A stretch of DNA of 22,620 nucleotides, taken from a virus. The stretch covers positions 1 through 22,620 of IMG/VR virus record IMGVR_UViG_3300042731_005119. One strand, written 5' to 3'. This document shows positions 1,263-18,244 of this stretch, piece by piece (position 1 is the first letter of the stretch; every line of letters starts with the position of its first letter). Made by a program: the position numbers and the translations under genes. The notes beneath the pieces are model-generated. The model did not search any database and had not been told where the DNA came from. It saw only the letters and a list, made by a program, of their open reading frames with translations.

Positions 1263-1329
1263 CAACGTAGATCTAGTTACACCAAAAAGAATGACGTAAA
1301 GTTCTAATAAATTCAGTATAATATAACCT

Positions 1330-1361: not shown

Positions 1362-1375
1362 AGGAGGAAACAGAA

Positions 1376-1594: not shown

Positions 1595-1752
1595 TGGATA
1601 TGTTTAATAATAAATTTGAGATTAAAAAAGACTCTAGAATGACAAAGGCTGAAAGATTACTTTTTAATATTTATTTAGAGTTGAAGGAATTAAACTCAAA
1701 TTTAACCAAAAATATGAAAAATATCAATAATAAAAAATCTACAAAAAAGTAG
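1594..1752 (+). CDS. Small basic protein, function unknown
   Basis: A 52-residue open frame starting at the ATG that overlaps the previous stop codon (TAATG at 1592-1596), which implies translational coupling. The protein is lysine- and asparagine-rich, with one predicted helix around AERLLFNIYLELKELN, and ends in a very basic tail. There is no clear independent ribosome binding site. It fills the gap exactly between the coiled-coil gene and the tail adaptor, whose ribosome binding site begins at the stop of this frame. Both points favour a real gene. No family recognised. Confidence 0.6.
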   Translation: MDMFNNKFEIKKDSRMTKAERLLFNIYLELKELNSNLTKNMKNINNKKSTKK

Positions 1753-1761
1753 GTGATAATG

Positions 1762-2415
1762 ATGGCAACAGTTCAAAACATAATTGATAGGGCCGCAACT
1801 ATTTATCCTACATCTCGAAGTGCAGCAGATCAAATATTGAGTTTAGCAAGAATCCAAAGAAGATTGTATACAAGACTTGGTCTAGATTCTGAACAATACA
1901 CAACTGACGAATCAGATGTGACAGTTGCAGACCAAGAGGAATATGATTTACCATCTGATTGTCAAATTTTTAATATTGTGAACATGACAATTGAAGTTGA
2001 AACAGTTGAAAGTAGCGGAGAATATGATGAATACAAATTTAGGGCATTTGATGAAATTTCAGTTGATTCAACAGGTAACTATTTTACAAGAGGATCAACA
2101 TCTTCAAAATATTTTATATATGAATCTGGAGAAATTATAGATGATAATGACAGGACCATAAGAATAAGATATTATCCAGACCCTACAATTATTGATTCTG
2201 CTGATGATACTCCAACACTGAGTTCTATGTATCATGATTATTTTATTTATATGCTAGCTGCTGAAAATGCAGCTTGTGGCACTGACCCTGATGTGGAATT
2301 AGCAAATTATTGGCGTAGCGAAGCAGAGGAATACTATAATGAAATGAAATATAGAATACTAGACAATTTTAACAATACAGACACTAGAAGTACAGGAGCA
2401 AAGGAGTATATGTGA
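1762..2415 (+). CDS. Tail adaptor / head-tail connector protein (T7 gp11 / P22 gp4 type)
   Basis: About 217 residues. The helical N-terminus (TVQNIIDRAATIYP then a long helix ending YTRLGLDSEQY) is followed by a beta-rich middle (YDLPSDCQIFNIVNM, FRAFDE, YFTRGS, IRIRYYPDP) and a helical C-terminus (YHDYFIYMLAAENAA, WRSEAEEYYNEMKYRI). This layout is typical of the podovirus tail tubular A/adaptor family, which forms a 12-subunit ring joining portal to nozzle. A GTG at 1753 is also in frame, but AGGTGA (1751-1756) fits the ATG at 1762 best; the ATG at 1759 is too close. The next gene encodes the nozzle, which supports the call. Identification rests on fold pattern and synteny. Confidence 0.72.
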   Translation: MATVQNIIDRAATIYPTSRSAADQILSLARIQRRLYTRLGLDSEQYTTDESDVTVADQEEYDLPSDCQIFNIVNMTIEVETVESSGEYDEYKFRAFDEISVDSTGNYFTRGSTSSKYFIYESGEIIDDNDRTIRIRYYPDPTIIDSADDTPTLSSMYHDYFIYMLAAENAACGTDPDVELANYWRSEAEEYYNEMKYRILDNFNNTDTRSTGAKEYM

Positions 2416-3806
2416 TGGCATATTTTAGTCAATCTCAAAGAAAAGAAAATATAAAAATATTATTAGGTGATGGAATAAATACATACACTCCTGATGGGTT
2501 AATAAAGCGTTCTGAATGTATATCTAATTTAAATATGTCATCTAGGAAATATCCAAGTCTATGTACTCGAGCAGGACGTACACATGCAGCCGACTCAATA
2601 ACAAACACAAATGGGATTGGATCATATAGAGACAGTTATTATTATAAGAATCTTGACATTTACTTACATGCGGTAGATGGCACAGTTTGGAAAAGATGGA
2701 ACGCTAATGCATGGGCAAACGTACAAACAGGACTTACCAATGGAACTGCAAATTTTGTTAATTTCAACACATCTACAAAAAACTACATAATCATGGTAAA
2801 TGGGTATCAAAAATTTGCTTGGGATGGTTCGTCGGTTACTACTTTAACAGACGCACCAGCAACTAATTTATACACCGTAGACGACAGACGATTATATGCA
2901 TTGAAAGGAGACGTGTTATATATTTCTGCAGGTGGAAGTATAACAGACTGGACTACTGTAAATGATGCTATGCAATTGGTTATAAACGGTTCGAGAGGTC
3001 TAGCTACTTGTATCTGCACATACAAAGACACTGTTATATGTTTCTTTGAAAATTCTATGCATATTTTATATGGAAATGACCCTTTTGATTTTGATTTGTC
3101 TGACCCTATATCAATAGGTTGCGTTGGTTCAAAAGCAGTGATAGAGCATAATGGAATACTATATTTTGTGTACAATGACGGACTATACAGATTTGCAGGT
3201 GGACAACCTGAGAAATTAAGTCAAAAAGTAGATGGCTATTTTAGTGATATTCCTTTTTTATATTGGACATTAGTATGTTTAGGAAAATATGACAGATGGA
3301 TATATATGTCAATAACATATGGAGCAGCAGCAACAGACAATAATATTACTTTGGTCTATGACACGCATTATGGAGTTTGGAATGTGCATAATGTAGGCTA
3401 CGCTGACTTTACACAAATAGCAGGCGACTTAATTGGCATAGACACAGATGGACAAACGTGGGTTTTAAATTCTGGGAATGATGATAATAGTGTTGCTATT
3501 GCTAGTCAATGGATAAGTGGATGGATAGATATGAGCGTAATTAGCAAAAAGAAAAGATTAACAAAGCAATATTATTTATTATATTTACCAACAGGTTCTA
3601 CTTTGACATTGTATTATTCGAATGATGGAAGTTCATGGACTAGTTTAAAAGCTTTTAGCACTTCATCATCAGAACAAATAGTAGCCGTTCCTGTTTCTTT
3701 GTCAGTTCTTAGTTCAGTTTCTAGATATAAATTTAAATTTGTTGGGACTGGACAATGGAGAATAAATCAAGTCGATGAATACTTTAATATAAAGAAGAGG
3801 CTATAA
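2415..3806 (+). CDS. Tail nozzle protein (T7 gp12 / P22 gp10-like)
   Basis: About 463 residues. The N-terminus (LLGDGINTYTPDGLIKRSECISNLNMSSRK) resembles the start of podoviral nozzle/stabilisation proteins that read 'gG-nt...p.g.l..e....eN'. The body is a run of short beta blades (GIGSYRDSYYY, LYLHAVDGTVWKRWN, YIIMVNGYQKFAWDG, LYALKGDVLYISAGG, GILYFVYNDGLYRFAGGQPEKLS), as expected of the beta-propeller nozzle, and ends in a jelly-roll-like region (SGWIDMS to YKFKFVGTGQWRI). The ATG at 2415 overlaps the adaptor stop as TGATG, with AGGAG at 2402-2406; a GTG at 2412 is also possible. The adaptor-nozzle gene pair is characteristic of short-tailed phages and defines the morphotype here. Confidence 0.75.
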   Translation: MAYFSQSQRKENIKILLGDGINTYTPDGLIKRSECISNLNMSSRKYPSLCTRAGRTHAADSITNTNGIGSYRDSYYYKNLDIYLHAVDGTVWKRWNANAWANVQTGLTNGTANFVNFNTSTKNYIIMVNGYQKFAWDGSSVTTLTDAPATNLYTVDDRRLYALKGDVLYISAGGSITDWTTVNDAMQLVINGSRGLATCICTYKDTVICFFENSMHILYGNDPFDFDLSDPISIGCVGSKAVIEHNGILYFVYNDGLYRFAGGQPEKLSQKVDGYFSDIPFLYWTLVCLGKYDRWIYMSITYGAAATDNNITLVYDTHYGVWNVHNVGYADFTQIAGDLIGIDTDGQTWVLNSGNDDNSVAIASQWISGWIDMSVISKKKRLTKQYYLLYLPTGSTLTLYYSNDGSSWTSLKAFSTSSSEQIVAVPVSLSVLSSVSRYKFKFVGTGQWRINQVDEYFNIKKRL

Positions 3807-3807
3807 A

Positions 3808-4635
3808 ATGAGCATATGGAAATTTTTAAAAGAAAATACAATTGAAAATACATTAGAATCACTTTTAAGAAGATTGAACTGGATATTTAGTAATCTTGAT
3901 TCTAAAAATGTAAAAAGATTAAACTTTTCCGAAACTGACATTATAACAAGTAGGAACAAGGTTGAAATCTTTGACGATTTTTTGTATCAGGCTATAAGTG
4001 AAAATGATACGCCATGGATATTGAATAGCGGAGCAGATGCCCAGGCAGTAGACCCGGCAATTGATAATCAAGAGAGCGGTGTGTTAAAGTTTGTTTCTGG
4101 AAATGCAGATGGTACGGTTGTGAATGATGGATGTCAACTTGTATGTTCTTTACCTGTGCAGGCACAAAAAGGAAATTTAATATTTGAAACTAGACTCCAT
4201 ATTAATACAGCAATAACAAATCTAAGTATTTGTGCAGGCTTTACAGATTCTACAGTACTTGAAGAACCATTTACGAACGCTGCGGATGTAATTACTAGCA
4301 ATGCAAGTGATGCAGCTTGTTTTGTATACGATGATGGAGCAACAACAAAAGAATGGTTTATGTGTGCAGTAGATAGTAATACAGATGATACAGGTAACAC
4401 AGCTTTAGGAACTGCTCCAATTGCTGACACATGGCAAACACTAAGAATTGAAGTGTCTGAGGACGGAACAGAAATAAAATTTTTCATTGATGGTGAAAAA
4501 GTTGGGACATTAAACAAAGATGCTGGAGTTTCTCCGGACGTTAATTTATTTGCAACTATAGTCATTTGCAGTACAACAACATCATCAAAGGATATAGATG
4601 TAGACTATGTATTTGTATCATACAATCGAGAATAG
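3808..4635 (+). CDS. Virion surface protein with lectin-like domain, paralogue of the first gene
   Basis: A 275-residue protein. A short N-terminal part (residues 1-50, helical, then KNVKRLNFSETDI) may be an attachment segment. From about residue 53 it carries a 220-residue beta domain (VEIFDDFLYQAI, ENDTPWILNSG, LIFETRLHINTAIT, ICAGFTDST, LEEPFTNAADVIT, LRIEVSEDG, NLFATIVICSTTT). This is clearly homologous to the C-terminal domain of the gene ending at 1262, and the similarity is visible at DNA level (shared CCATGGATATTGAATAGCG). The domain probably has a concanavalin-like fold, often used in phages for carbohydrate or cell-surface binding. It starts at ATG 3808 with AGAGG seven bases before, directly after the nozzle gene. 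The role in the tail is inferred. Confidence 0.65.
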   Translation: MSIWKFLKENTIENTLESLLRRLNWIFSNLDSKNVKRLNFSETDIITSRNKVEIFDDFLYQAISENDTPWILNSGADAQAVDPAIDNQESGVLKFVSGNADGTVVNDGCQLVCSLPVQAQKGNLIFETRLHINTAITNLSICAGFTDSTVLEEPFTNAADVITSNASDAACFVYDDGATTKEWFMCAVDSNTDDTGNTALGTAPIADTWQTLRIEVSEDGTEIKFFIDGEKVGTLNKDAGVSPDVNLFATIVICSTTTSSKDIDVDYVFVSYNRE

Positions 4636-4650
4636 AAAGCAGGTGAGAAA

Positions 4651-6555
4651 TTGGCTAATAAAACCTATAATGGTGTAATGTATGATCCTGCGACAAATTA
4701 TCAATCATTGATAAACAAAGCAGGAACAGACAAAAGTTCTTTAGATACCTTATATAAACAAAGAGCAGCTAAAATATACGGTGAAGGGATAACCAGTAAG
4801 TATTCAACAGTGCCAGGGCAACTACAATATTTGCAAAATGCAAGTTCGCCGCAACAAGTGGAAACAAATACTCAAAAAGTAACTCCAACTACAAAAACTC
4901 AATACTCAGATCAAATAACTCAAAGTTTAGGTGACTTAGCAGACATGTTAAAAACTCCATTAACATACGATTCTAGCAAAGACGAAGCATTCCAGGCAGC
5001 ACAAACAAACATATCTAATGATGTATATAGGAACTTAGCAAGAAGGAATATTGCGGATAGTTCTTTTACTCCTCAGCAAATTTACGAGTTAAGTATGTCA
5101 GCATTACCGCAATATCAACAATTATGGCAAGCTAATCAACAACAAAATTTAGCAAATAATTTTGAAATGTTATCTCAGTTGCAAAATCTTGATACAACTG
5201 AGTTTAATAAAACACAAGCATTAGCACAATTTGATCAAGAGAAACAACAAGCATTAGAGCAATTGCAGTTACAAAAAGGTCAACTAACAGGAGATTACTT
5301 AACTCCAGAGCAAGCAGCTTTACTGGAGAATATTGACCCAATGCTAAATATGTATGCAAATTATGACGGAGGATATCAGGCAGAAATAAATCGAAGGTCT
5401 GCAATAAATCCAAACGACCCTGTTATTACTCAACTGAAATATTTGAGGAATCAAAAGATTAATAATCTTGGATTGACATATCCTGAGAGCGTGCTAGGTG
5501 ATAAAACACTAGAACAAGCACAAGCAGAATATAGCAATCAATTTAATACTGCGCAACTGACAGGATATTATTTAACACCACAACAGCAGAGGGCAGTAAA
5601 TAACGGAGTTGCAGCAGAAGATAAGGAAAGAATTGATAAGATTGTAGCTAATTTGCAAGGTGGTTATCAAGCATATATGAATCAATTAGATCCTAGCAGT
5701 GCTGAATTTGCAAAAGCTCAAATGTTAAGAAATGAAAAGATTGCTAAGCAAGGATTACCATATGAACCAACATATGGAGGCGAAACCTTGGCAGGAAAAG
5801 AATATAAATTAACAGAGCAAGAGGCTGAAATGAATCAAAAACTTGCTAAACAAGATTTATTTACAAAACAGACACAAAATAATTATCTTGAGCAACAATT
5901 GCAAGCAGACTTAAGTCAAACAGAGTTGCAAAACGTAGGTTTAGATGTAGCGAATGAAATATCAAAAATTAATTTAAACTATTTACCTAAAGAGAAACGG
6001 TCGGCTTTAAAACAAGCTCAAGTTGAGCTTAAGAATGGTAAATTACAAAATGCATATCAGAAAATTATAAATGCTAATTTACCAGATCAGCTAGAAGCGG
6101 ACTTGAAAAAAACAATAGCTGACATAGAATACACTTATTCAAGTACATCAAACTCAAACATTGACACAGCATTAAAATCAGGTTCTGTTACTGGGACAGG
6201 TGCGTCCGTAATTGCTTATGCTAGTAACTATATAGGTACTCCATACTTGTGGGGTGGTGAAAGCTCGAAAGGTATTGATTGTTCTGGGTTAACACAAGCA
6301 GCTTTCAAGAAAATTGGTGTGAATTTGCCTAGACACACAGGTGATCAGGTAGAAAAAGGAACAGCAGTAAAAAAAGCTGACTTGCAACCAGGAGACCTTG
6401 TTTTTTTTAACACATATAAAAAAAATGGGCATGTTGGAATTTATATAGGTGGTGGACAAATGATACATGCTGGTAGTACAAAAGGCGTATCAATCACAAG
6501 TATAGATTCTAGTTACTGGGCACCTAGATATTCAACGGCAAGAAGAGTAATATAA
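4651..6555 (+). CDS. Virion-associated NlpC/P60 cell-wall peptidase with long helical N-terminus
   Basis: 634 residues with a TTG start (AGGTGA at 4641-4646). Residues 1-510 are glutamine-, asparagine- and alanine-rich, mostly helical, with repeated LTGDYLTPEQ/LTGYYLTPQQ and GGYQAEIN/GGYQAYMN segments, so the middle contains an internal duplication. This composition resembles podoviral internal (ejection) proteins. Residues about 525-634 are an NlpC/P60 domain with DCSG (catalytic Cys544), GHVGIYIG (His594) and MIHAG (His606), ending in the family-typical ARRVI. NlpC/P60 enzymes cut D-glutamyl peptides in peptidoglycan stems, so this protein probably opens a local hole for DNA entry or acts at lysis. 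The gene is followed by the group I intron and then a transglycosylase gene, giving the virion two complementary wall-cutting activities. Confidence 0.82.
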   Translation: MANKTYNGVMYDPATNYQSLINKAGTDKSSLDTLYKQRAAKIYGEGITSKYSTVPGQLQYLQNASSPQQVETNTQKVTPTTKTQYSDQITQSLGDLADMLKTPLTYDSSKDEAFQAAQTNISNDVYRNLARRNIADSSFTPQQIYELSMSALPQYQQLWQANQQQNLANNFEMLSQLQNLDTTEFNKTQALAQFDQEKQQALEQLQLQKGQLTGDYLTPEQAALLENIDPMLNMYANYDGGYQAEINRRSAINPNDPVITQLKYLRNQKINNLGLTYPESVLGDKTLEQAQAEYSNQFNTAQLTGYYLTPQQQRAVNNGVAAEDKERIDKIVANLQGGYQAYMNQLDPSSAEFAKAQMLRNEKIAKQGLPYEPTYGGETLAGKEYKLTEQEAEMNQKLAKQDLFTKQTQNNYLEQQLQADLSQTELQNVGLDVANEISKINLNYLPKEKRSALKQAQVELKNGKLQNAYQKIINANLPDQLEADLKKTIADIEYTYSSTSNSNIDTALKSGSVTGTGASVIAYASNYIGTPYLWGGESSKGIDCSGLTQAAFKKIGVNLPRHTGDQVEKGTAVKKADLQPGDLVFFNTYKKNGHVGIYIGGGQMIHAGSTKGVSITSIDSSYWAPRYSTARRVI

Positions 6556-6586
6556 AAAAATTGCATAAACAATTAAAAGCTACACC

Positions 6587-6876
6587 CTATGTTCGGCGAC
6601 GAGCGTAGAAAACTTTGTGAACTGCTTGGATTGGTTATTATGCTTATGCAGCTACAACATATCTGGAAACGGAAAGTGTGAACGCTGGGAAACCTGAAAA
6701 AATGCATAAGATGGCATAAGGTTAAATCCTAAGTGCAGTTATAAGCCACGTCTAGCAGGTAAGCCGCTAAGTACTTTTTAGTATATGCGGAAACTTCAAC
6801 GACTATCCATTTTGGAGTAGGGGAAACCCGAAGTGCTAAGCTCTCATTAAATTGAGATGATGATATAGTCTAACAG
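6587..6876 (+). ncRNA. Group I self-splicing intron (IA-like), no homing endonuclease
   Basis: The core motifs are plain. The R-type element CTTCAACGACTATCC (6794-6808) and S-type element GATATAGTC (6862-6870) pair as P7, with GACTAT (6801-6806) against ATAGTC (6865-6870). P1 is formed by exon CTATGT (6587-6592) and guide sequence GCGTAG (6603-6608), with the required U.G pair at 6592/6603, placing the 5' splice site after 6592. GTGAACTGCTTGG and GTGTGAACGCTGGG resemble conserved upstream group I segments. TCTCA/TGAGA (6842-6846, 6854-6858) can form P8. CCGC/GCGG and AACCT/AGGTT hairpins precede P7. No P9 hairpin is obvious, so the 3' end is uncertain; G6876 is the most upstream candidate. 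It lies between two virion lytic-enzyme genes rather than inside an evident reading frame. Identity is high-confidence; the ends are approximate. Confidence 0.85.
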
Positions 6877-6890
6877 TAGCAGGAGGATTA

Positions 6891-7325
6891 ATGCAAACAA
6901 CTGGAAATACATCTATTGATAAAGCATTTACAACTAATGCGGCAACATATGGATTAGACCCAAACTTGATATATGCTATTTCTCATGTAGAAACAGGAGG
7001 AACTTTTGACCCAACTTTACAAAATAATATCGAAGGTGGGCATTTTGGATTAATGCAAGTATCAACAAACTTGCTAAATGACTCGAATATTGGCAACTGG
7101 AAAAGTCCTCAGTTGAATACAATGGTAGGTGCGAAATATTTAAATTATTTATTAAAATATTTCGACAATGACATGGAAAAGGCAATTTGTGCATACAATG
7201 CAGGTGAAGGGACTATAGGCGGATTAGTGAGAGACTACGGTAATAATTGGAAGAAACATTTATCGCCAGAAACAAAAAAATATTTACCTGCAGTTTTGAA
7301 AATATATACATCTTTAAAAACCTAA
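6891..7325 (+). CDS. SLT-type lytic transglycosylase (virion-associated)
   Basis: 144 residues, essentially one soluble lytic transglycosylase (SLT) domain. YAISHVETGG contains the probable catalytic Glu34, followed by GHFGLMQVS and AICAYNAGEGTI, the three hallmark motifs of the family. It cleaves the MurNAc-GlcNAc backbone of peptidoglycan to 1,6-anhydro ends. There is no signal peptide, as expected for a protein carried into the wall by the particle. AGGAGG (6881-6886) is four bases from the ATG. The frame is open upstream to 6864, and splicing at 6592/6876 would place an exon-1 ATG in frame, adding MLAGGL before this start. It lies between the P60 peptidase and the large ejection protein, and probably works with both during DNA entry. 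Confidence 0.85.
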   Translation: MQTTGNTSIDKAFTTNAATYGLDPNLIYAISHVETGGTFDPTLQNNIEGGHFGLMQVSTNLLNDSNIGNWKSPQLNTMVGAKYLNYLLKYFDNDMEKAICAYNAGEGTIGGLVRDYGNNWKKHLSPETKKYLPAVLKIYTSLKT

Positions 7326-7340
7326 CTAGAAGGTGATTTA

Positions 7341-10300
7341 ATGTCTAATATAACAAATAGAATAAATGAAATAAGACAAAAGTATAATTTGCCTGTTAGC
7401 ACTGGAATGAGTGTTAGCAGGCAAATTGATAATATAAGAAATAAATATAACAACATGGAAAATGTATACTTAGAAAATATAAAAAGAAGTGAAGAAATAA
7501 GAAAAAAAAGAGAAGAAGAAGAGTATAAAATTTGGAAGGCAAGAGCAGATAAAGCAGTTGAAGAATCAGTCGAAAGAAGAAAAAGAGAAAATCAGAAGAA
7601 GCAAAAGGATAAAGCTTCAAGAGAAGCGGCAATCAAAAATGAAGCATTAAAAAGAATGGGTATAGCAGGAGGGCAAACACAGTTACAGCAAGCGACAGGA
7701 AGCAATTTTACTCCAAAAAAAAGCACATGGGATAAGGTTAAAGATTTTGGTCTTACTTCTTTAGTTTCTAATCCTTTACTAGCTGCAATTGACGCAAAAT
7801 TTAACGCTGGAAGAGGAAGCAATTTAGCAAAAAGTGCTATATATGGGGTAGGTGAAACAGTCGCAAAACCGCTAAATTATCTAGCCGACAAAGCAATGTT
7901 TGAATGGAACAAAAAAGCAAACTATAATGTAGATGGATCCAAGAGTAAATATCCTCAAGGATACAGCAAAGAGACGGACGCCATAGCAAAAAAAAAATCT
8001 AAGGAAGAAATTGAAAAAGCTAGATTACTAGATGAGATAGAATTAGAAAGAGTCGCAACAAATAGACCCTATGGCTGGACTCCAAGCAATGCTGAATCAA
8101 TCGCAAAGGGTGTAGGTAGCACAGCCGCAGAGTTCGCACAAATGGCAGCTTTAGGGAATGTAGCAGGTGGCATGTCAGCAGCAACAAAGTTACCTAAATA
8201 TGGTAAATTTGCGTTGGAATCTGGGATAGTTGGAACTGGATTAGGACTATTGAGGAGCATGGACAAAAAAGATAATACTTATAAAGACTACTTAAGAAAT
8301 ATTGCAGGGGAAACAGCTTTTATGGGAGCTGGAGGGCTGGCAGGAAAAGGAGCCGGAAGAATAGTCGGAAAAGGATTAAGCTATTTAAACAAACCTGCTA
8401 TAGAAAAAATAGGATCAACAGTAGCACGTGGAATGGCTTTTGGTGGTGGTGGAAGTATTGCACAAGCACCATTTAGCGACGAAAAATTAACATCGGAAAA
8501 TATTGCTACAAATGCATTGGTTGGAGCAGGATTTGAACTTGGACTAAATGCAAAAGGAATGGTCAATAATTATAACAAGACTCATATTGAGTATAACAAG
8601 TCTTTAGAAGGACTAAATAGATCTATACAAAGACAATCTGAGAAAGGAATTAATAAAATTGATTTCAATGAAAGGTATGGATTAAATCAAGATATATCAG
8701 GAATGAATCAAAATGAAAAAAAAATACTTTTGAAAAAATCCTTAAATAAAATCCTTGAGGCTTCAGGTAAAAATATATCTGGAAATTTAAAAACAGATAA
8801 TATTTACAAAATTGCTCAACATTACAAAGAAAAATATAATTTGCCTGATTTGAAAATAACTACAACAATAAAACCTGGGGGAGAACCAGCAACTACTTAC
8901 TTTAGCCAAGACGGATCGGCTAAAATAGAAATAAATAAAAGTTATACTAAAAATCAACAAGTAGCTGGGTTAAGGCACGAAATAGAACATGTAATTGATA
9001 GTAAGGCTGGATATAAAGGAAGTGACAAAATAGCAGAACCAGAAGGTACTTTCAACAAATTAGAAGAGCTATATAACAGCGTATACAAAGGACATCATAG
9101 AGATTACAATTCTTTTGATGTAGAATACCTGAAGAATTACAACAAAAAAAGTGAATTAATGGGAAATCAAAAAAATGATATTGCTTTCAATGAGCCAAAT
9201 AAAGTTGATGGGGTTAAAGCAGGATATGAAAGAGATATCGACAAGTTAGAAAAAATAAATATAAATATAAAAGATAGAAAACTAACTAATGAAACAATGC
9301 ACATGACAGAAAGGTCAAGTAAGAAAATAAAGGAAAGATATCTTGATACTAAAGAAGCTATAAAGACTATATGGCTAGATAGATATGAAGCAATTAAAAA
9401 AATATCAAGGAAAGCAAATGAACTATTTAATCTGGAAACTCAAAGTAGCGGAACAGTTGATTATATTATAAACAAAAGGTTAGTTAATAGAGAAGGTGAT
9501 GAACTAGCAAACAAAGGGTTTAAAGATGTTTTAGGGATAAAAAACAAAAATGTAAAAAAGCAATTCTATAACTATCTTTATAACAAGCACAATGTAGATA
9601 GAGCAAAATATGAAAAAACTTTATTGACAGACTTAGAAGGAAATCAAATATCGGCAAAGAGATCAAAAGAAATAATCAATGAATATGAACAAACTTATCC
9701 AGAATTCAAAAAAATGTCAGAGCAATACAACCAATTATGGCAAACATTTACAAAAGAATGGTTAAGTGATTTTGTGGACCAGAAAACAATTAATTATTTG
9801 CAGAAAAAATATCCAAACTATGTACCTTCGTATAGACAGTTAGAAAGTTTTTTGACTGAAATCCCAACAAATAGAATTGTATCTGGTGTAAAAATAAAAC
9901 AAGCAACAGGAAGTAAGAAAAAGATTAAGCCTTTTGACGAACAACTTGTAGCTCAAATAAACAAAATAGTAAAAAGCAATAGAAGAAATGAAGCATATAA
10001 AGAAATGTTAAAGCCAGTTTTGAAGAACCCTGGCAAATACAAAAATGTATTAGAAGTAGTTAAAATAGATAAAAATAGTAGTGAAATGAGTGAAAAAGAA
10101 ATCGCTAATCAAATAGCAGAACTAAAGGAAGGAATTGTAAGTGGCGAAGATTCATTAAATTTACTTATGGACTTGATGGAAAATCCACTGAAACAAAAGT
10201 CTGGCATGGATGGATATCTTACTATATTTGACAAAGGGATACCAATTACAGTAAAAATAAAAGATAAAAGGATATATACAGCATTAAAAAAATATCAACA

Positions 10301-11816
10301 AGATGGAGAATTGTGGAAACTATTAGGGATTTGGAAGAAATTCGTTGTTCAACCATTTAAATCTCTTATAACTCAGAATCCTTTTTTTGCAACTAGAAAC
10401 ATAACAAGAGATACTCCAACCGCTTATGTCCAAGGAAACGAAGGTAATCCTATTAAATTTACTAGAGATAATGTAAAAGCCATGGTAGATATAACATTAA
10501 AAAATCCATTATGGAAAAAATATTCGGCTTTAGGAGGACGATTAACTAACATAAGAGATAACCCATTGGCACCGAATTTAACAGGTAAACTATCAAAAGC
10601 AAAAGATAATATATTTTCAATTATGGAAGTAGCAGAACAATTAAACAGATTTGCAGAATTTGAAAGAGTATATAAAAAGACTGGAAATGTACAAGATGCA
10701 AGGATAGCAGCAGCAAATATAACAACAAATTTCGGTAAAGGTGGTACACTTTCAAAGTTTTTAGAGAATCTTCTTCCTTTCTCAAACGCAGCAGTTCAGG
10801 GCTTAGCAACAACAGTAAGGGCATTTAAAAATAAACCAGTACAATCTTTAATTAGAACATTAGTATCAACAACAATCCCAGGTGGTTTGTTTTACTGGAA
10901 TATCATTAGAGATGATGAAAAATCAAAAATTTATGATGAGATACCAAATAATATAAAAAATAGCAATTTTATAATTGTGAAAGATAAAGATACTGTAATT
11001 AAAATACCAAAAAATTACACAACTGGACTAATATTTACAAGTTTAGGAGAACGTTTTTACGACTATGCAAAAAGAAATGATGATAAAGCATTTGATGAAC
11101 TTAAAGAAAGTTTTATCAATTCTTTTTTGCCATATAATTTTAAAGGGAACATTCTCGCGCCAGCTACAAACCTAGTCATGGGAGGAAATAAAGATTATTT
11201 TGGTAGGGAAATCGTCCCACAATCAATGAAAAATTTGTCTAATAAAAATCAATATGATGAGAGGACGACAACTGTAGGTAAATTCCTAGGACAACAATTT
11301 AATTGGAGTCCAAAAAAAGTAGACTATGCTATGGATAGCTACATAGGTTCAATATATGATTTTATGCGAAAAACAGGAAAAGAAGAAAAAAATATACCTG
11401 GAAAAGTGATAGATATGGGAAAAGCTAATTTTACGGTAAACACTTCATATACGCGCACACAGAATGAATACTATGATGTTTTAGACAAATTCAGAACTAA
11501 AAAAGCAGACTTTGATAAAAGTATTCAAGATAAAAAAAATGAAGTAAAAGAAGCAGGCTACAAACTAACTACAAATGCAGGGAAATCATATCTACAAGAA
11601 TTACTTACAAGTACTGAAAGTGAAAAAATGCAGGAATACAAAGACATAAACAAAAGAATAAGTGAGCAATTAGAGGAATTGCAAGGAATTGAAGAAAGAG
11701 AAAAAACTAGTACTTTGCGAGACTATATAAATGAATTAAAAGACTTTAAACCATCTAATAACGATAACTATGGAGGAATGAGCAGCAATCCTTTATATTA
11801 CGACTATAGGAAATAG
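7341..11816 (+). CDS. Giant internal virion / DNA-ejection protein with HEXXH motif and LPD38-like region
   Basis: 1491 residues, by far the largest gene here. The N-terminus has two copies of an I--IR-KYN motif, then a highly charged coiled coil (about 45-105). Residues about 230-400 contain glycine/alanine-rich hydrophobic stretches (GIVGTGLGLL, MGAGGLAGKGAG) that could enter a membrane. RHEIEH (H546, E547, H550) is an HEXXH zinc-metallopeptidase motif. From about residue 1005, NPFFATRNITRD, then FLENLLPFSNAAVQG and the following WNIIRDDE and IPKNYTTG segments match the pattern of the LPD38-type region of large phage polyvalent proteins. The C-terminus is again coiled coil. Such a size and position match podoviral core proteins (T7 gp16-like role), which form a conduit into the cell. 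AGGTGAT precedes the ATG. Role inferred from size, context and motifs. Confidence 0.7.
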   Translation: MSNITNRINEIRQKYNLPVSTGMSVSRQIDNIRNKYNNMENVYLENIKRSEEIRKKREEEEYKIWKARADKAVEESVERRKRENQKKQKDKASREAAIKNEALKRMGIAGGQTQLQQATGSNFTPKKSTWDKVKDFGLTSLVSNPLLAAIDAKFNAGRGSNLAKSAIYGVGETVAKPLNYLADKAMFEWNKKANYNVDGSKSKYPQGYSKETDAIAKKKSKEEIEKARLLDEIELERVATNRPYGWTPSNAESIAKGVGSTAAEFAQMAALGNVAGGMSAATKLPKYGKFALESGIVGTGLGLLRSMDKKDNTYKDYLRNIAGETAFMGAGGLAGKGAGRIVGKGLSYLNKPAIEKIGSTVARGMAFGGGGSIAQAPFSDEKLTSENIATNALVGAGFELGLNAKGMVNNYNKTHIEYNKSLEGLNRSIQRQSEKGINKIDFNERYGLNQDISGMNQNEKKILLKKSLNKILEASGKNISGNLKTDNIYKIAQHYKEKYNLPDLKITTTIKPGGEPATTYFSQDGSAKIEINKSYTKNQQVAGLRHEIEHVIDSKAGYKGSDKIAEPEGTFNKLEELYNSVYKGHHRDYNSFDVEYLKNYNKKSELMGNQKNDIAFNEPNKVDGVKAGYERDIDKLEKININIKDRKLTNETMHMTERSSKKIKERYLDTKEAIKTIWLDRYEAIKKISRKANELFNLETQSSGTVDYIINKRLVNREGDELANKGFKDVLGIKNKNVKKQFYNYLYNKHNVDRAKYEKTLLTDLEGNQISAKRSKEIINEYEQTYPEFKKMSEQYNQLWQTFTKEWLSDFVDQKTINYLQKKYPNYVPSYRQLESFLTEIPTNRIVSGVKIKQATGSKKKIKPFDEQLVAQINKIVKSNRRNEAYKEMLKPVLKNPGKYKNVLEVVKIDKNSSEMSEKEIANQIAELKEGIVSGEDSLNLLMDLMENPLKQKSGMDGYLTIFDKGIPITVKIKDKRIYTALKKYQQDGELWKLLGIWKKFVVQPFKSLITQNPFFATRNITRDTPTAYVQGNEGNPIKFTRDNVKAMVDITLKNPLWKKYSALGGRLTNIRDNPLAPNLTGKLSKAKDNIFSIMEVAEQLNRFAEFERVYKKTGNVQDARIAAANITTNFGKGGTLSKFLENLLPFSNAAVQGLATTVRAFKNKPVQSLIRTLVSTTIPGGLFYWNIIRDDEKSKIYDEIPNNIKNSNFIIVKDKDTVIKIPKNYTTGLIFTSLGERFYDYAKRNDDKAFDELKESFINSFLPYNFKGNILAPATNLVMGGNKDYFGREIVPQSMKNLSNKNQYDERTTTVGKFLGQQFNWSPKKVDYAMDSYIGSIYDFMRKTGKEEKNIPGKVIDMGKANFTVNTSYTRTQNEYYDVLDKFRTKKADFDKSIQDKKNEVKEAGYKLTTNAGKSYLQELLTSTESEKMQEYKDINKRISEQLEELQGIEEREKTSTLRDYINELKDFKPSNNDNYGGMSSNPLYYDYRK
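7386..7427 (+). other. 18-bp hairpin near the 5' end of the ejection-protein mRNA
   Basis: AATTTGCCTGTTAGCACT (7386-7403) pairs along its whole length with AGTGTTAGCAGGCAAATT (7410-7427), with two G.U wobbles and a GGAATG loop. It starts 45 bases inside the coding sequence, immediately after the intron and transglycosylase genes. A stem this long could slow ribosomes, protect or process the mRNA, or shape expression of this very large gene. The function is unknown. Confidence 0.6.
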
Positions 11817-11823
11817 GTGAATC

Positions 11824-12099
11824 ATGGAAAAATTACAAGAAAAACTAAATGAGGCAATAATAAGAATCGCAGTCCTTGAAAATGGCTATGATTCAGTGAA
11901 GGACGATATAAAGACGTTGAAAGAGGATATGAAGAATATCCATCAAGAAATAATAAAATTAAATAAAGTACTAGAAAATAAATTTACAGAATTAGATAAA
12001 CAAAAAATAAATGAATTAAAGACATCTAGAGCAATGATTATAGGCATAATAATTAGTATCTTAACAAGTATTATTGTTCCTTTTATTACAGGAAGGTGA
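11824..12099 (+). CDS. XhlA-like holin / lysis membrane protein
   Basis: 91 residues. Residues 1-66 form a charged coiled coil with a regular heptad (LQEKLNEAIIRIAVLE, DIKTLKEDMKNIHQEIIKLNKVLE), followed by one C-terminal membrane segment (AMIIGIIISILTSIIVPFI) and a two-residue tail. This layout is that of the hemolysin XhlA family, found in lysis cassettes of Gram-positive phages, where XhlA acts with a holin and endolysin at the cytoplasmic membrane. AGGTGA just before the ATG overlaps the end of the ejection-protein gene. No endolysin gene is adjacent, so the P60/SLT enzymes may serve lysis, or an endolysin lies outside the window. Confidence 0.75.
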   Translation: MEKLQEKLNEAIIRIAVLENGYDSVKDDIKTLKEDMKNIHQEIIKLNKVLENKFTELDKQKINELKTSRAMIIGIIISILTSIIVPFITGR

Positions 12100-12105
12100 T
12101 GATGT

Positions 12106-13848
12106 ATGTTCAAATTGGCATATAACGTAAATAGTGATTCAGGAAGCCAACCTCGCATTCATAAAATTGCTAGTAATACAGCAATAGAAAAAGGAGAACT
12201 AACAAAAAAACACAATGGATTAATAGTAAGTTATACAAATGGGAATTTTTATGACCCAGTAGCAGGTGTTGCAGCAGAAGATCACGACGGGACTACAACA
12301 GGAAGGCAGACTGGAAATGAAATAAAAATTTTTGATCATCATGATGATGTATTTTCATATATACCGCGCGAATTGATAACAGCTACAGGAGGTTCGACTA
12401 CAACATTTGTAGATACTAATTTAAAGTTTAATGATGATGAGTTGAATGGTGGGTTTATAATTATTGTAAGTTGTGCGGCTAGTAGTACTATGAATAATAG
12501 AATGATACATATAAATGACTATACAGCAAGCACGGGAACAATTACATTATCTGAAACATTGCCATATACTTTATCAAGTGGAGATACAGCATATTTGTGT
12601 CCTGGGAAACAGGCAACAGGATGGAAAAATTGGGGATTAAATAGTGATGGAACAGGCATTAATTGGGAAGATGATAATGATGGGGAATCAATAGAGTTTT
12701 TTGATGTAAATCCTGAAACATTCACTATTATGTTAAAGTTTTCAATAAATAAAATTGATTCAGGCAATACAATTAATGCTATAAATTTGATAAGTATATA
12801 TCCAGAAAGCAAAATTATACAATCAGCTATTAACTTAGCTTATACATCAGGGAAAAAAGTAATTGTCCCGCCGGGAACTTACACTACAAGTGAAAAAATA
12901 ACAATAAAAGAAAATGTAAATATAGAATTTATAGAAGCTACAATAAAGCCAGATGGCAATTTTGATGTTATACAAATAAAACCTAAAACAAAGATAACAG
13001 GGCTAACAATTGATTGCAGTGAAGTTCCTGGCTGGGATAGTTCTGCAATAGTTATTTATGGTGGAGATACTTTTAGAGGCTATGACAGATGTTATTTGAA
13101 AGATATAACATTAATCAATACAGTAACAGGGGATGGCACTAAACATACCGGGAATGGGATAAAGATGTATTGTGATGTTTTGAGTCAAGCTATAGAATTT
13201 TTGAATTTTGAAAACATATACACTCAAGGATTCGGCAAAGGAATATATATCCATAGCACTATAGCAAATAGTTACACTAACAGTCCTTGGATAAACGGAA
13301 ATAATTTTTCTAATTATAAAAGCTTTAAAGATACAAACGCAATTTACATTGACTGTAAATATCAAGCAGAGGGAAATATATTTTCAAACTTTCAAATTCA
13401 AGGGGATTACTATGGTAGCAGTGAATATGCTATATATTGCAAAGCTAGCCGAAATAAATTTAGTGGTTCAGTATATGACTGGGGAGGTGCTATACAAACA
13501 GAAACAGGAATTTATATAGCTTCAGGAAGTATAAATAATTATATAAATATTACTTCTCAGTCAAAGTACTCAGAAGAAAACATTATAGTAGACTATGGAA
13601 CTAGGACAGTAATAGAAAGTAATGTAACAAAATCATTGAAACTTAATAAGCCAAATACATGTGATGAACATGGCATGAATGGAATACAAGATAATTTTTT
13701 ATCATATGCAGATAAAAAATTTACTTGTACTTTGACAGGTACCCCAGCGTACGGAGGACTAACAAGAATTTTTGACCCCAATAATTACCTTTTAACCCCA
13801 TTTTCTGAGCAAACTATTAAAAGTAGTTATGTGCGAATCAGATATTGA
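12106..13848 (+). CDS. Tailspike / receptor-binding protein with right-handed beta-helix
   Basis: 580 residues. The first 220 or so form a beta-rich head part that probably attaches to the tail (VSYTNGNFYDPVAGV, IKIFDHHDDVFSYIPRELI, TGTITLSETLPY, LCPGKQATGW). From about residue 240, IYPESKIIQSAINLAY and GKKVIVPPGTYTTSEKI is the classic entry to a pectate-lyase-like beta-helix, followed by regular coils of 20-25 residues to about 500. Such proteins recognise and sometimes cleave surface polysaccharides. No definite catalytic residues can be assigned. The ATG at 12106 is the only in-frame start near AGGTGA (12094-12099). It is the last gene of the late operon, where host-range genes often sit. 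Confidence 0.75.
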   Translation: MFKLAYNVNSDSGSQPRIHKIASNTAIEKGELTKKHNGLIVSYTNGNFYDPVAGVAAEDHDGTTTGRQTGNEIKIFDHHDDVFSYIPRELITATGGSTTTFVDTNLKFNDDELNGGFIIIVSCAASSTMNNRMIHINDYTASTGTITLSETLPYTLSSGDTAYLCPGKQATGWKNWGLNSDGTGINWEDDNDGESIEFFDVNPETFTIMLKFSINKIDSGNTINAINLISIYPESKIIQSAINLAYTSGKKVIVPPGTYTTSEKITIKENVNIEFIEATIKPDGNFDVIQIKPKTKITGLTIDCSEVPGWDSSAIVIYGGDTFRGYDRCYLKDITLINTVTGDGTKHTGNGIKMYCDVLSQAIEFLNFENIYTQGFGKGIYIHSTIANSYTNSPWINGNNFSNYKSFKDTNAIYIDCKYQAEGNIFSNFQIQGDYYGSSEYAIYCKASRNKFSGSVYDWGGAIQTETGIYIASGSINNYINITSQSKYSEENIIVDYGTRTVIESNVTKSLKLNKPNTCDEHGMNGIQDNFLSYADKKFTCTLTGTPAYGGLTRIFDPNNYLLTPFSEQTIKSSYVRIRY

Positions 13849-14304: not shown

Positions 14305-14460
14305 ATGTCAAAAGTAAAAAAAACATTTCATTTAGATGAAAGTATTAATGAAAAATTAAGAAAAGCTGCATACCTTTCTAAAAAATCTGAAAATAAAATT
14401 GTAAGCAACTTTTTAGTTGCGTACTTGGACGATTTCATTTTGCTATATACAAAGAAATAG
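14305..14460 (+). CDS. Ribbon-helix-helix (Arc/CopG-type) DNA-binding protein
   Basis: 51 residues. KKTFHLDESI is the beta-strand that inserts in the DNA major groove, followed by helix A (NEKLRKAAYLSKKS) and helix B (ENKIVSNFLVAYLDDF). The length is standard for a single RHH domain; the protein acts as a dimer. AAAGGAGTG at 14291 precedes the ATG by a normal distance. Such proteins autoregulate plasmid and phage operons and, in transfer modules, bend oriT DNA for relaxosomes. The palindrome over its own promoter and the inverted repeats at its 3' end are plausible targets. The last third of the gene forms the first arm of the hairpin cluster. Confidence 0.8.
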   Translation: MSKVKKTFHLDESINEKLRKAAYLSKKSENKIVSNFLVAYLDDFILLYTKK

Positions 14461-14582
14461 CATATAGCAAAATAGAAAATCCTTGCATGATAATGGATCA
14501 ATAATCATGCAAGGACATGGGAATAAAAACGTTCTACATAGAGATAATAACACATCTATGTAGAGAAAGGAAGTGTTATTAT
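14437..14582. repeat. Cluster of four perfect inverted repeats, oriT- or origin-like, possible pseudoknot
   Basis: Within 146 bases there are four uninterrupted dyads. ATTTTGCTATAT (14437) pairs with 14462-14473. TCCTTGCATGAT (14480) pairs with 14504-14515. TCTACATAGA (14533) pairs with 14555-14564. ATAATAACAC (14544) pairs with 14573-14582. The last two interleave as arms A1-B1-A2-B2, so they form either alternative hairpins or an H-type pseudoknot, and the ribosome binding site of the next gene sits between A2 and B2. None has a downstream T tract, so they are not terminators. Their place between an RHH gene and TcpD-like/FtsK genes resembles a transfer or replication origin. Confidence 0.65.
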
Positions 14583-14584
14583 TG

Positions 14585-14824
14585 ATGGATGTAAATACAA
14601 TAAATATAGATACTATAATAGGAGTTTCAACAGTGCTTGTAGGATTTATATTATTCGCTAAGATGGTATTTAATGGCGGATTTAACTTCAAAAATTTAAT
14701 ATGGGCAGTTGTTGGTATTGCTATCATGGTAAATGTAATAAAAAATCCTGAGATGTTAGAACCTCTCGGGAAAAAACTGATTGATTTATTATTAATAGTA
14801 TTAGAAAATTTAACAAAAAAATGA
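14585..14824 (+). CDS. TcpD-like small membrane protein
   Basis: 80 residues with two membrane segments (about 10-29, IIGVSTVLVGFILFAKMVF; about 37-53, LIWAVVGIAIMVNVI), then KNPEMLEPLGKKLIDLL. The pattern 'F--LI--V-G-AI---V-NP----LG' is that of TcpD-type membrane proteins from Gram-positive conjugative plasmids, which assemble with the FtsK-like coupling ATPase TcpA. The start is uncertain: AAAGGA (14566-14571) favours TTG 14582 or ATG 14585, while GTG 14573 is too close. The ribosome binding site lies in the putative pseudoknot, so initiation may be structure-controlled. An unknown gene and an FtsK-type ATPase follow, supporting a DNA-transfer role. Family assignment is by pattern, not by alignment. 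Confidence 0.6.
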   Translation: MDVNTINIDTIIGVSTVLVGFILFAKMVFNGGFNFKNLIWAVVGIAIMVNVIKNPEMLEPLGKKLIDLLLIVLENLTKK

Positions 14825-14840
14825 CATAACAATAAAGATA
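14817..14840 (+). repeat. 24-bp direct repeat, copy 1
   Basis: AAAA followed by ATGACATAACAATAAAGATA, identical to 15146-15169. This copy covers the TcpD-like stop codon and the leader of the next gene; the second lies in the first codons of the FtsK-type gene. The pair flanks the 94-residue gene. Confidence 0.85.
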
Positions 14841-14855
14841 AATAGGAGGATTAAT

Positions 14856-15140
14856 ATGGATAGTTATTTAAGGGAAATAATATTAGGTATCATGAAAGCA
14901 ATAGCAACACTTTACGATAAAGAAATAGTCCGTGACCAATACGGATTGACTCTATTCAAAGATGGAAAATTCTTTGAATTAGATAGCGAGGACAAATGGA
15001 AGGAGTACAATAATAAAAAATGTATAGATGATATGGTAGGGGATTTAGAGGGAGTAGTTGAGGAATTAAGAAAAGAAGGGTTAGAGATAAACTATGAAGT
15101 TAAAAGGATATTTCAAAATAATGACGGTGAAAAAACATGA
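14856..15140 (+). CDS. Protein of unknown function between TcpD-like and FtsK-type genes
   Basis: 94 residues, acidic, not recognised. It has a helical N-terminus (LREIILGIMKAIATLYDKEI), a short beta hairpin (YGLTLFKDGKFFEL) and a helical acidic C-terminal half (CIDDMVGDLEGVVEELRKEGL). There is no membrane segment or known motif. TAGGAGG (14843-14849) precedes the ATG. The stop overlaps the FtsK-type start by four bases (ATGA), so the two are translationally coupled and probably work together. A 24-bp direct repeat flanks the gene almost exactly, which suggests it arrived by, or was boxed in by, a recombination event. Confidence 0.65.
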   Translation: MDSYLREIILGIMKAIATLYDKEIVRDQYGLTLFKDGKFFELDSEDKWKEYNNKKCIDDMVGDLEGVVEELRKEGLEINYEVKRIFQNNDGEKT

Positions 15141-16957
15141 AAAAGAAAAATGACATAACAATAAAGATACTATTGTTTATATTTAAGAAAACAATAAAAG
15201 TTCTAGCAACAATTGCTAGAGCTTCTATAAAGGAGATTAAATACTTCGTAAAGAAAAGGACCAAACAATCAATATTAACTTACCTTTTCTTTACTTCAAT
15301 TTGTGTAGTCTCAATTTGTGTAGTCTTTGACTATCAATTGAATTATATTACTGTTTTGCTTTGTACCACCTTATATTTTATCATTTTTGGAACAATAAGA
15401 GAAGTAATCTCAAGGATTAAAAAAGCAAAAAATAAAGCAAAAATTAAACTATTAAATAGGAGGTATAAAGCTATTAGAGCATTGTTTAATAACAAAATTA
15501 ATATTGTTTCAGCTACTAACTCAGAAATTATTATTTTCAGTGATAGTATTACGACAAAAGATTTATTACAGCAAAAAGACAGATTAGAAGTGTTTTTTAA
15601 CCGAAAAATATCATATATTCAAAAAAGAAGTAATTTTAAGTACAATAGAATAATTTTTCATACAGAAACTAAGTTTAAGAAATTTTACAGGTTTGATCAT
15701 TACATGAATTTTGTTGACAAGAACAAAATCAAAAAAATGGAACTTCCTTTTATTTATGGAATAGATCAACAAGAAAATATCCTAATCGGAGACATGGCGA
15801 AAATAAAATATCTTTTTGTAGCTGGCGAGGCTGGCGGTGGGAAAAGTGTTATGTTAAACTGTATAATTCAATCACTCATGATTTTTAAAAATGATGTAAT
15901 TTATCTCTTAGTTGATCTAAAAGAAGGTGTTGAGATGAGTGATTATAATAAATTTCCTAATTGTATTATTTGCAGTACTCCAGAAGAATTTAGCCAGGTG
16001 TTGAAAGTGCTAGATAACATGATGATAGAAAGACTAAGAAAAATAAAAGAGACCGATAACTGTAAGAATATACAGTCTTACAATGCAAAAAAGCATACAG
16101 CGAACATGAGCTATATTGTATTTGTGATTGACGAGATGGCAGAACTAAAACTTAGTTCCGATAAAGCAGGAAAGAGTGATGAAGAGAAAACACTACTAAG
16201 AATATTACAAAAAGGTCGAGCAGCTGGAATATTTGGTATAGGTGCAACACAGCGTCCTGGTACTGGTCAAATAGATTCAGATGTAAGAGCAGGGTTTCAT
16301 AAGAGTATTAGTTTTGGTATATCTAGAATTGAAACTCAAAGGATGGTAAAAGTTTATGGAACTGAAAACTTAAAGGAAGGTGAATTTAAAACGGATTTAC
16401 TTGACACAAATACTGTATACAAGGGATTTCTAATTATGGAAGAAGAAAACAAAATGAAGAAGTTACCTGAATGTAATGGTGTTTTTTCTAGTTTATATTT
16501 GAAGTTAGTTCTTGGAATTGAACCAATACAAATTAAACATAAGAAGAAAACAAACACTAATAATCTAATACAAAAGTTTCTAAGTAACAGAAACAAAGGT
16601 TATGACCTTAGTTATGACCTTAGGCAAAGTTATGACCTTAGAATAAAATACCCTACAGCCCACGTAGTAAAAGAGATTGAAGTAATTTTAAAAGCTTCAA
16701 ATTTTAAAAAAAACGCTAAAGATATACATACGGATCTCGAAGGTCATAACGATTTTTCATACGAAAATTTTATTCAATTTTTAGAGTCTTATTCTGAACC
16801 AAAAACTGGAATAATACCAACTGCAAAAAAAACCTTCGAAAAGCTTGGTATTACTGAAAAGAAAAGAACTCTATTATTGAAACAAGCAGAAAAAGATGGC
16901 TACATAGTAAAAAACGGTCAAACCCGCTTTAAACTAAAAGTAAACAAGCATATTTAA
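15137..16957 (+). CDS. FtsK/TcpA/TraB-family DNA translocase
   Basis: 606 residues. Basic N-terminus, two membrane helices (about 44-63 and 70-90), a soluble linker, then an FtsK-type motor. GEAGGGKS is the Walker A (G230-S237), FVIDEMAEL the Walker B (D332, E333), and LQKGRAAGIFGIGATQRP is the sensor region of the family. The last 70 residues (KTGIIPTAKKTFEKLGITEKKRTLLLKQAEKDGYIV) look like a winged helix, the DNA-reading part in FtsK and TraB. The motor is a hexamer that pumps double-stranded DNA or feeds single strands to a conjugation channel. The TcpD-like partner upstream favours TcpA-like coupling. The gene contains direct repeats of GTTATGACCTT that may be recognition sites. No relaxase gene is in the window. 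A host-independent segregation role for a plasmid prophage is an alternative. Confidence 0.82.
   Translation: MKKKNDITIKILLFIFKKTIKVLATIARASIKEIKYFVKKRTKQSILTYLFFTSICVVSICVVFDYQLNYITVLLCTTLYFIIFGTIREVISRIKKAKNKAKIKLLNRRYKAIRALFNNKINIVSATNSEIIIFSDSITTKDLLQQKDRLEVFFNRKISYIQKRSNFKYNRIIFHTETKFKKFYRFDHYMNFVDKNKIKKMELPFIYGIDQQENILIGDMAKIKYLFVAGEAGGGKSVMLNCIIQSLMIFKNDVIYLLVDLKEGVEMSDYNKFPNCIICSTPEEFSQVLKVLDNMMIERLRKIKETDNCKNIQSYNAKKHTANMSYIVFVIDEMAELKLSSDKAGKSDEEKTLLRILQKGRAAGIFGIGATQRPGTGQIDSDVRAGFHKSISFGISRIETQRMVKVYGTENLKEGEFKTDLLDTNTVYKGFLIMEEENKMKKLPECNGVFSSLYLKLVLGIEPIQIKHKKKTNTNNLIQKFLSNRNKGYDLSYDLRQSYDLRIKYPTAHVVKEIEVILKASNFKKNAKDIHTDLEGHNDFSYENFIQFLESYSEPKTGIIPTAKKTFEKLGITEKKRTLLLKQAEKDGYIVKNGQTRFKLKVNKHI
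15146..15169 (+). repeat. 24-bp direct repeat, copy 2
   Basis: Identical to 14817-14840; here it encodes residues 4-11 (about KNDITIKI) of the FtsK-type protein. Because this copy is coding, it is probably the original and the upstream copy the duplicate. Confidence 0.85.
16599..16750. repeat. Four GTTATGACCTT sites inside the FtsK-type gene
   Basis: GTTATGACCTTAG occurs three times in direct orientation (16599-16611, 16611-16623, 16629-16641), spaced 12 and 18 bases, and AAGGTCATAAC (16740-16750) is an 11-base inverted copy. The direct copies encode YDLS-YDLRQS-YDLR in a linker between motor and winged helix. The inverted copy is in a different protein context, so protein repetition alone does not explain it. 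Confidence 0.75.
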
Positions 16958-16969
16958 TGCTTGTTTACT
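16939..16969. repeat. Perfect 13-bp hairpin at the end of the FtsK-type gene
   Basis: AGTAAACAAGCAT (16939-16951) and ATGCTTGTTTACT (16957-16969) flank the loop ATTTA, and the stop codon lies in the loop region. No T tract follows on the plus strand; on the minus strand the arm is followed by CTTTTAGTTT. It could be a 3' stability element, a weak minus-strand terminator or a protein site. Confidence 0.65.
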
Positions 16970-17363: not shown

Positions 17364-17441
17364 ATGTTAAAAGACTTTAAAATTTTTGATACTGACTCAG
17401 TGTTTCTGAATCCTGAAGAACGGTCAAGCATTACAAATTAA
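17364..17441 (+). CDS. 25-codon ORF, possibly a truncated gene
   Basis: It starts with a good ribosome binding site (AAAGGAGA then ATGTTAAAA, echoing the leader of the gene at 17012) but stops after 25 codons (ends ERSSITN). Its end overlaps the 3' end of the convergent recombinase by 11 bases. The strong start and very short length suggest a gene cut off when the recombinase block was joined here, or a genuine micropeptide. No homology recognised. Confidence 0.45.
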   Translation: MLKDFKIFDTDSVFLNPEERSSITN

Positions 17442-18157: not shown

Positions 18158-18244
18158 ATTTACGAATATTTTCGTAAATGTTTTTGGAATCTTTACGAAT
18201 GCAAGAAAAGGCTAAAATACGTTTTGATTTTTAGCATTCGTAAA
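18158..18244. promoter_or_regulatory. TTTACGAA dyads: candidate recombination core or operator
   Basis: ATTTACGAA (18158-18166), TATT, TTCGTAAAT (18171-18179) is a perfect 9-bp dyad. Then TTTACGAATGC (18192-18202) is mirrored by GCATTCGTAAA (18234-18244), with GCTAAAA/TTTTAGC nested inside. So four copies of TTTACGA lie within 87 bases. If read as ATTTACGA, 6-bp spacer, TCGTAAAT, the first dyad has the geometry of a Xer-like core site. Proximity to the recombinase favours an att/res site; an operator for an early regulator is equally open. Confidence 0.6.

Follow-up and report, generated by a model that had tools for sequence, protein, structure and literature searches.

The virus contig IMGVR_UViG_3300042731_005119 of IMG/VR, analysed here over all of its 22,620 bases (hereafter the window), is a fragment that carries no completeness estimate; negative results for the window cover these 22.6 kb only. 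Podovirus-type late genes fill its first part (1-13848), and the region considered here (14305-16957) begins after the end of the tail spike at 13848. It holds, in one reading direction, a short open reading frame (ORF) of ribbon-helix-helix (RHH) appearance, a cluster of hairpins, a small membrane protein, a soluble protein and an ATPase of the FtsK/TcpA branch, and it is followed by an integrase gene on the opposite strand (Table 1). The initial annotation had taken this region for a conjugation-like DNA-transfer module. The evidence laid out below points instead to a diverged variant of a gene cassette known from phages and plasmids of Bacillota, built around a motor that is predicted to sit in the membrane, that is akin to the pumps with which bacteria drive DNA across membranes and that may serve lysogeny or maintenance of the phage.

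Table 1. Positions of the features in the window, with the basis of each assignment
Feature	Position	Strand	Basis and remarks
Late-gene products	1-13848		SU10-type adaptor, internal virion protein, NlpC/P60 tail protein, transglycosylase, 1491-aa LPD38 protein, tail spike
RHH-like (Arc-like) protein, 51 aa	14305-14460	+	PHROG 582 Arc-like repressor, E = 0.0068; pattern KKTFHLDESINEKLRKAA...; weak
Hairpin 1	14437-14473		Perfect 12-bp arms, 13-nt loop; overlaps the end of the RHH ORF
Hairpin 2	14480-14515		12-bp arms (TCCTTGCATGAT / ATCATGCAAGGA), 12-nt loop
Hairpin 3	14533-14564		10-bp arms, 12-nt loop; excludes hairpin 4
Hairpin 4	14544-14582	+	Alternative RNA fold before the 14585 start codon; preferred by RNA minimum free energy and centroid
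Membrane protein, 79 aa	14585-14824	+	Two predicted helices, hydropathy peaks at residues 5 and 34; no family match
Soluble ORF, 94 aa	14856-15140	+	Stop overlaps the ATPase start (ATGA)
FtsK/TcpA-branch ATPase, 606 aa	15137-16957	+	PF01580, PHROG 1358, phmmer, hydropathy, AlphaFold model, Foldseek; N-terminal membrane helices ~43-63 and ~70-90, alpha and motor domains ~120-430, helical C-terminal extension with possible winged helix ~506-597
ORF, 109 aa	17013-17341	+	Directly 3' of the ATPase; own AAAGGAG site; not PF13814
Short Xer-like tyrosine recombinase/integrase, 190 aa	17431-18003	-	PF00589, E = 5e-30; PHROG 216 integrase, E = 1e-64; HTLR motif

The ATPase is the best characterized part of the region. 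It matches the FtsK/SpoIIIE domain PF01580 of Pfam (E = 6.9e-20) as well as PHROG 1358 (E = 5.5e-40), and both Walker motifs are intact (Walker A, GEAGGGKS, at residue 230; Walker B, IVFVIDE), which together with the modelled motor domain confirms the FtsK-type ATPase originally called at 15137. In phmmer searches against the PDB, Escherichia coli FtsK (4.5e-15) and TcpA of pCW3 (1e-14) were almost tied, and the motor is 35% identical to TcpA over 208 residues, the TcpA sequence used for comparison being residues 96-344 of PDB chain 6o1z. An AlphaFold model made with a 76-row alignment has a mean predicted local distance difference test (pLDDT) score of 76.5 (38 for a single-sequence model), with the predicted motor domain mostly above 90 and the C-terminus middling. 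Foldseek with this model returned TcpA (PDB 6o1w) first (3.0e-18) and FtsK second (3.1e-18), whereas VIA-align gave a Z of 30.7 for FtsK (root-mean-square deviation, rmsd, 3.0 over 348 residues) and, with a small gap, 28.8 for TcpA (rmsd 6.8 over 315 residues); VirD4-type TrwB lies clearly below both (Z 16.9), and terminase was absent among the matches listed in the fold searches. According to hydropathy, the N-terminus contains two hydrophobic helices.

Used by itself as the query against viral_contigs and genome_contigs, the ATPase found no true relative; neither did a scan with an alignment of the ATPase and TcpA, and the wider alignments retrieved only motor domains of 25-37% identity. Motor-domain trees fail to place the protein (support 23/0) and cannot decide its affiliation, because it forms a long branch without a close relative. 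As a separate observation, a 31-base inverted repeat (16939-16969) spans the ATPase stop codon and resembles a terminator site for the minus strand.

Beyond the motor domain, the C-terminal 160-170 residues or so have no family match (nothing in Pfam at E <= 1) and no phage relatives by tblastn. In the model, their helices and a small hairpin could form a winged helix; the fold search covered the model as a whole, and the winged-helix look of this extension is unconfirmed. An FtsK-branch motor with a helical C-terminus of this kind recalls TraB, and a mechanism can be envisaged in which the ATPase and the small membrane protein, the latter in the role of an Spd protein (PMC12857230), would alone transfer double-stranded DNA (dsDNA) between cells without a relaxase. 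The NCBIfam TraB family does match the ATPase weakly, over the motor only (E = 1.3e-7), but with 30.5 bits against a cut-off of 800. Moreover, strand-biased repeated 7/8-mers of the clt/TRS type were not found in the fragment besides ribosome-binding-like sequences, and TraB acts in mycelial Streptomyces, as opposed to the low-GC Bacillota host that is probable here. The TraB-like option of the initial annotation is thus unsupported, and it is very improbable, the least likely of the rival explanations. Hardly any credence can be given to the bolder proposal of a temperate podovirus with a self-contained, relaxase-free TcpA/TraB-like pump, which would pass its dsDNA genome from cell to cell free of particles and use the hairpin cluster as recognition site.

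Upstream of the ATPase, the features are of uneven clarity. The inverted-repeat cluster that had been reported there is real and far beyond chance: DNA folding of the 161-base region gives z = -7.6 and RNA folding z = -7.5, none of 200 shuffles being as stable, and at least three such hairpin sites occur in only 0.3% of its dinucleotide shuffles. The arm sequences differ among the hairpins, and repeated operators of one protein are therefore disfavoured. Hairpins 3 and 4 are mutually exclusive, and hairpin 4, a possible translational switch in the predicted fold, ends two bases ahead of the 14585 start codon; a translation-controlling RNA leader is therefore as good a reading of the modelled cluster as a candidate origin of transfer (oriT). 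Rfam searches returned no match, and DnaA boxes are not in excess. The RHH protein is plausible but weak, since against its Arc-like PHROG match stand the lack of any Pfam match and a best phmmer hit in the PDB of E = 0.47; small RHH-looking ORFs can be seen by eye at the equivalent place in the phage cassettes L002, L127, L138 and L139, but their alignment is poor. The 94-residue ORF, missed in the initial annotation, has no significant match in Pfam, PHROG or NCBIfam. Its 4-base overlap with the ATPase start suggests, from the sequence, that the two are translationally coupled.

The 79-residue protein had been described as TcpD-like. It is a real ORF with two hydrophobic helices, but it has no Pfam or PHROG match, only a chance-level NCBIfam match (E = 0.02; 14.9 bits, where the cut-off is 100) and no relative in phages or plasmids by tblastn; the TcpD identity was rejected on the absent family match and a gene order unlike that of the tcp locus, without a direct comparison with TcpD. 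In pCW3, TcpK and TcpM form a group with oriT, and TcpD belongs to a pair of VirB3-like channel proteins (PMC6137059, PMC12857230), so that the gene order of the window is not the one expected of a transfer module, as had been claimed. Among the scanned ORFs of the window there is indeed no relaxase (TcpM, MobT or other families), the recombinase matching integrases, and no Pfam or NCBIfam match to the channel proteins TcpC/VirB8, TcpD-TcpE/VirB3, TcpF/VirB4 or TcpH/VirB6. Two outcomes had been named in advance as speaking against a transfer module. The first came true, as the product at 14585 has no match among transfer families; the second did not, since the ATPase groups with neither packaging nor chromosomal FtsK paralogues in the trees that fail to place it. 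What is left of the proposed module is an ATPase equally close to TcpA and FtsK with its two N-terminal helices, whereas the TcpD-like partner and the expected order fall away, and neither a relaxase nor channel genes are seen in the window.

Such an ATPase could nevertheless act in mobilisation, as a TcpA-type coupling protein that delivers relaxase-nicked phage DNA into the channel of a conjugative element in the same cell, the relaxase being unseen or encoded by the host. A hand-over of this kind is presumed for integrative mobilisable elements that carry TcpA, and TcpA genes are widespread in mobilisable elements beside tyrosine integrases (PMC5357655). The ATPase is as near to TcpA as to FtsK, both by sequence and by fold, which fits this explanation; so do its two N-terminal helices, a pair that Orf21 of Tn916 and the FtsK-like proteins of small plasmids with a Rep protein have as well. 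The hairpin cluster could be the oriT, and TcpM of pCW3 is itself related to tyrosine recombinases (PMC12857230). However, TcpA is paired with a relaxase gene in those elements, the recombinase adjoining the ATPase resembles an ordinary integrase with its HxxR motif present, and the hairpins can be accounted for by an RNA leader structure. Mobilisation is the main rival and an unlikely one, and nothing here shows a phage made conjugative by its motor, although conjugation-like transfer is possible.

A parallel for the arrangement is provided by a known cassette of Bacillota phages and plasmids, which consists of a small membrane or RHH protein, an FtsK-like ATPase and a protein of family PF13814 (Replic_Relax). 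In Bacillus phage Page (gp25-27), a homologue of the large ORF of the window and lysis genes are followed by a protein of 55 residues with two helices, an FtsK-like protein and one labelled 'replication initiation protein', and in SpaA1 (P26-P28) the equivalent set adjoins an integrase. The cassette also occurs in an IMG/VR group within L123-L174, in the plasmids L176 and L177 and in L002. A homologue of the third protein lies directly downstream of a SpaA1-, Page- or L002-like FtsK at 25 IMG/VR loci, and 16 of 19 third-gene proteins match PF13814. As in the window with its 79-residue two-helix protein, a small membrane protein precedes FtsK in SpaA1, Page and many IMG/VR relatives. Unlike the ATPase of the window, the phage FtsK proteins that go with PF13814 mostly lack N-terminal membrane helices. 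In Pagevirus podoviruses the cassette stands at a position equivalent to that in the window, and other Bacillota phages carry it at a comparable place. FtsK modules are found in most related phages of the B. cereus group, where their role has been called unclear (PMC3335513); in phage Fah the FtsK gene belongs to the delayed class, and in related phages the module lies near the lysogenic integrase (PMC4113786, PMC3335513). A survey of streptococcal mobilisable elements filed PF13814 under MobC relaxases and found TcpA beside non-canonical relaxases (PMC5357655), and a mobilisation role of the phage cassettes therefore stays a question.

In L125 (6158-8936) and L139 (6506-8954), an ALP_N actin-like gene of ParM type (E = 6.7e-18 and 2.9e-15), an RHH-looking ORF, FtsK and a PF13814-type protein stand in a row, a partition-like neighbourhood. 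L002 (CP026602.1, Clostridiaceae bacterium 14S0207 plasmid unnamed2), a 38.8-kb circular molecule typed as non-mobilisable, combines myovirus structural genes with the FtsK cassette and is probably a phage-plasmid. Two other candidates proved unrelated: L006, read here as a phosphorothioation-type ATPase, and L007 (MT837146.1, a fecal contig named 'Bacteriophage sp.' in GenBank), which resembles a bacterial chromosomal FtsK region and is probably mislabelled. The idea of a split PF13814 remnant in the window (the winged helix of the ATPase C-terminus plus a nuclease-like motif in a 126-residue ORF) found no support, with an hhalign probability of 0.2%.

That FtsK is present in Page-type podoviruses without an annotated integrase, and in Herelleviridae, is what would be anticipated if the motor worked in the lytic cycle, unlinking concatemeric phage DNA or feeding it to packaging (concatemer handling has been proposed for a podovirus FtsK; PMC13299392), or altering the movement of the host chromosome during infection. 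Yet the ATPase gene of the window adjoins an opposite-strand integrase, its fold is that of FtsK/TcpA, with no terminase match as noted above, and many relatives belong to phage-plasmid or plasmid cassettes. A lytic role is doubtful, and it ranks below mobilisation.

With chances that we put at about even, the cassette would be a membrane-anchored dsDNA translocase for the lysogeny or maintenance of the phage. Its genes, from the RHH ORF through to the ATPase, share one orientation, and a convergent integrase gene follows. The ATPase would assemble into a hexamer that its pair of N-terminal helices fixes at the membrane, where the small membrane protein may be its partner. While the phage is lysogenic or its prophage is being induced, this hexamer would thread phage DNA in circular or concatemeric form. 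The element could thereby be moved through or away from the septum, either for segregation or in order to place DNA for the neighbouring recombinase, while the RHH protein and the hairpin leader would most likely control expression. The predicted FtsK/TcpA-type dsDNA motor fold, the Pagevirus location, the upstream membrane protein and the adjoining integrase argue for a translocase, and a maintenance role is suggested, by analogy, by the partition-like neighbourhoods of L125 and L139, by the circular L002 with its phage structural genes, by the delayed class of the Fah gene and by the FtsK modules near lysogenic integrases.

Several findings weigh against this translocase. The window lacks PF13814, which normally comes third in the cassette, and Pfam at E <= 1 finds no FtsK gamma domain in the C-terminal piece of the ATPase. 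Within the fragment, a partition gene, a replication origin and a proven repressor are all missing, as is a strand-biased guide octamer. Of the seven contigs in which the large ORF has a relative, only two carry an FtsK gene, both of them Pagevirus genomes; it is missing from L181, L183 and L184, non-Page contigs that run at least 5 kb past the large ORF (L180 and L186 are too short past it to judge), and the motor is therefore an accessory rather than a core podovirus function. Lastly, functional data were found for no phage member of the FtsK cassettes.

The surroundings of the region bear out the description of a podovirus-type genome with the region placed after tail genes. Besides the position of the tail spike, the LPD38 protein (encoded by the ~4.5-kb ORF 7341-11816) has relatives in Bacillus Pagevirus podoviruses, e.g. 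Palmer and Page (tblastn; 21-22% identity over about half its length). ORFs 39-1262 and 3808-4635 share a domain of ~200 residues (..VFDDF..AE.DTPWILNSG.D.QA.DPAID.QE.GV.KF.SG..), duplicated and tail-associated, without a Pfam match. Downstream of the ATPase, the 109-residue ORF, in its TTG-start version, has no Pfam, PHROG or NCBIfam match, and between it and the integrase lies an ORF of 25 codons (17364-17441) that has a strong AAAGGAGA site. Upstream of the integrase gene, a long non-coding stretch contains four copies of TTTACGAA, two per orientation, at 18159-18244; this sequence occurs 7 times in the window against 1.1 expected and could represent arm-type or operator sites.

FtsK-like motors recur in Bacillota phages and phage-plasmids, usually with PF13814, and for none of the phage members has a tested function been found. 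A podovirus variant in which the motor has its own membrane anchor and PF13814 is missing suggests a pump that acts on its own. If any such phage can be mobilised in addition to being packaged, the border between phages and conjugative elements becomes still less sharp; if the motor serves segregation, an unrecognised maintenance system would be at hand.

Compared with known systems, the ATPase resembles pCW3 TcpA (PDB 6o1w) in its motor, as the top Foldseek match and in having an N-terminal membrane domain, but the window is without tcp channel genes, relaxase or VirB4, and the fit to FtsK is just as good. In Orf21 of Tn916, as in the FtsK-like proteins of small plasmids with a Rep protein (L004, L175), a single motor domain likewise stands behind two N-terminal membrane helices; the elements that carry them have a MobT or Rep-type protein, a partner not seen in the window, and identity of the ATPase to Orf21 is 24%. 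With Streptomyces TraB the ATPase has in common the FtsK-branch motor and possibly a DNA-binding C-terminus, while it stays far under the family cut-off and clt-like repeats are missing from the window. Chromosomal FtsK/SpoIIIE has the same motor fold, whereas the ATPase has two instead of four membrane helices, no recognisable gamma domain and a phage location. The FtsK and PF13814 cassette matches in the FtsK-branch motor after a small membrane or RHH-looking protein, in the Bacillota setting, in the related large ORF of Page and in its placement after tail or lysis genes, near an integrase in several phages. Its FtsK proteins are only 21-25% identical to the ATPase, and the window represents a diverged variant of this cassette, in which PF13814 is lacking and the motor has two membrane helices of its own as anchor and a helical C-terminal extension of ~160 residues.

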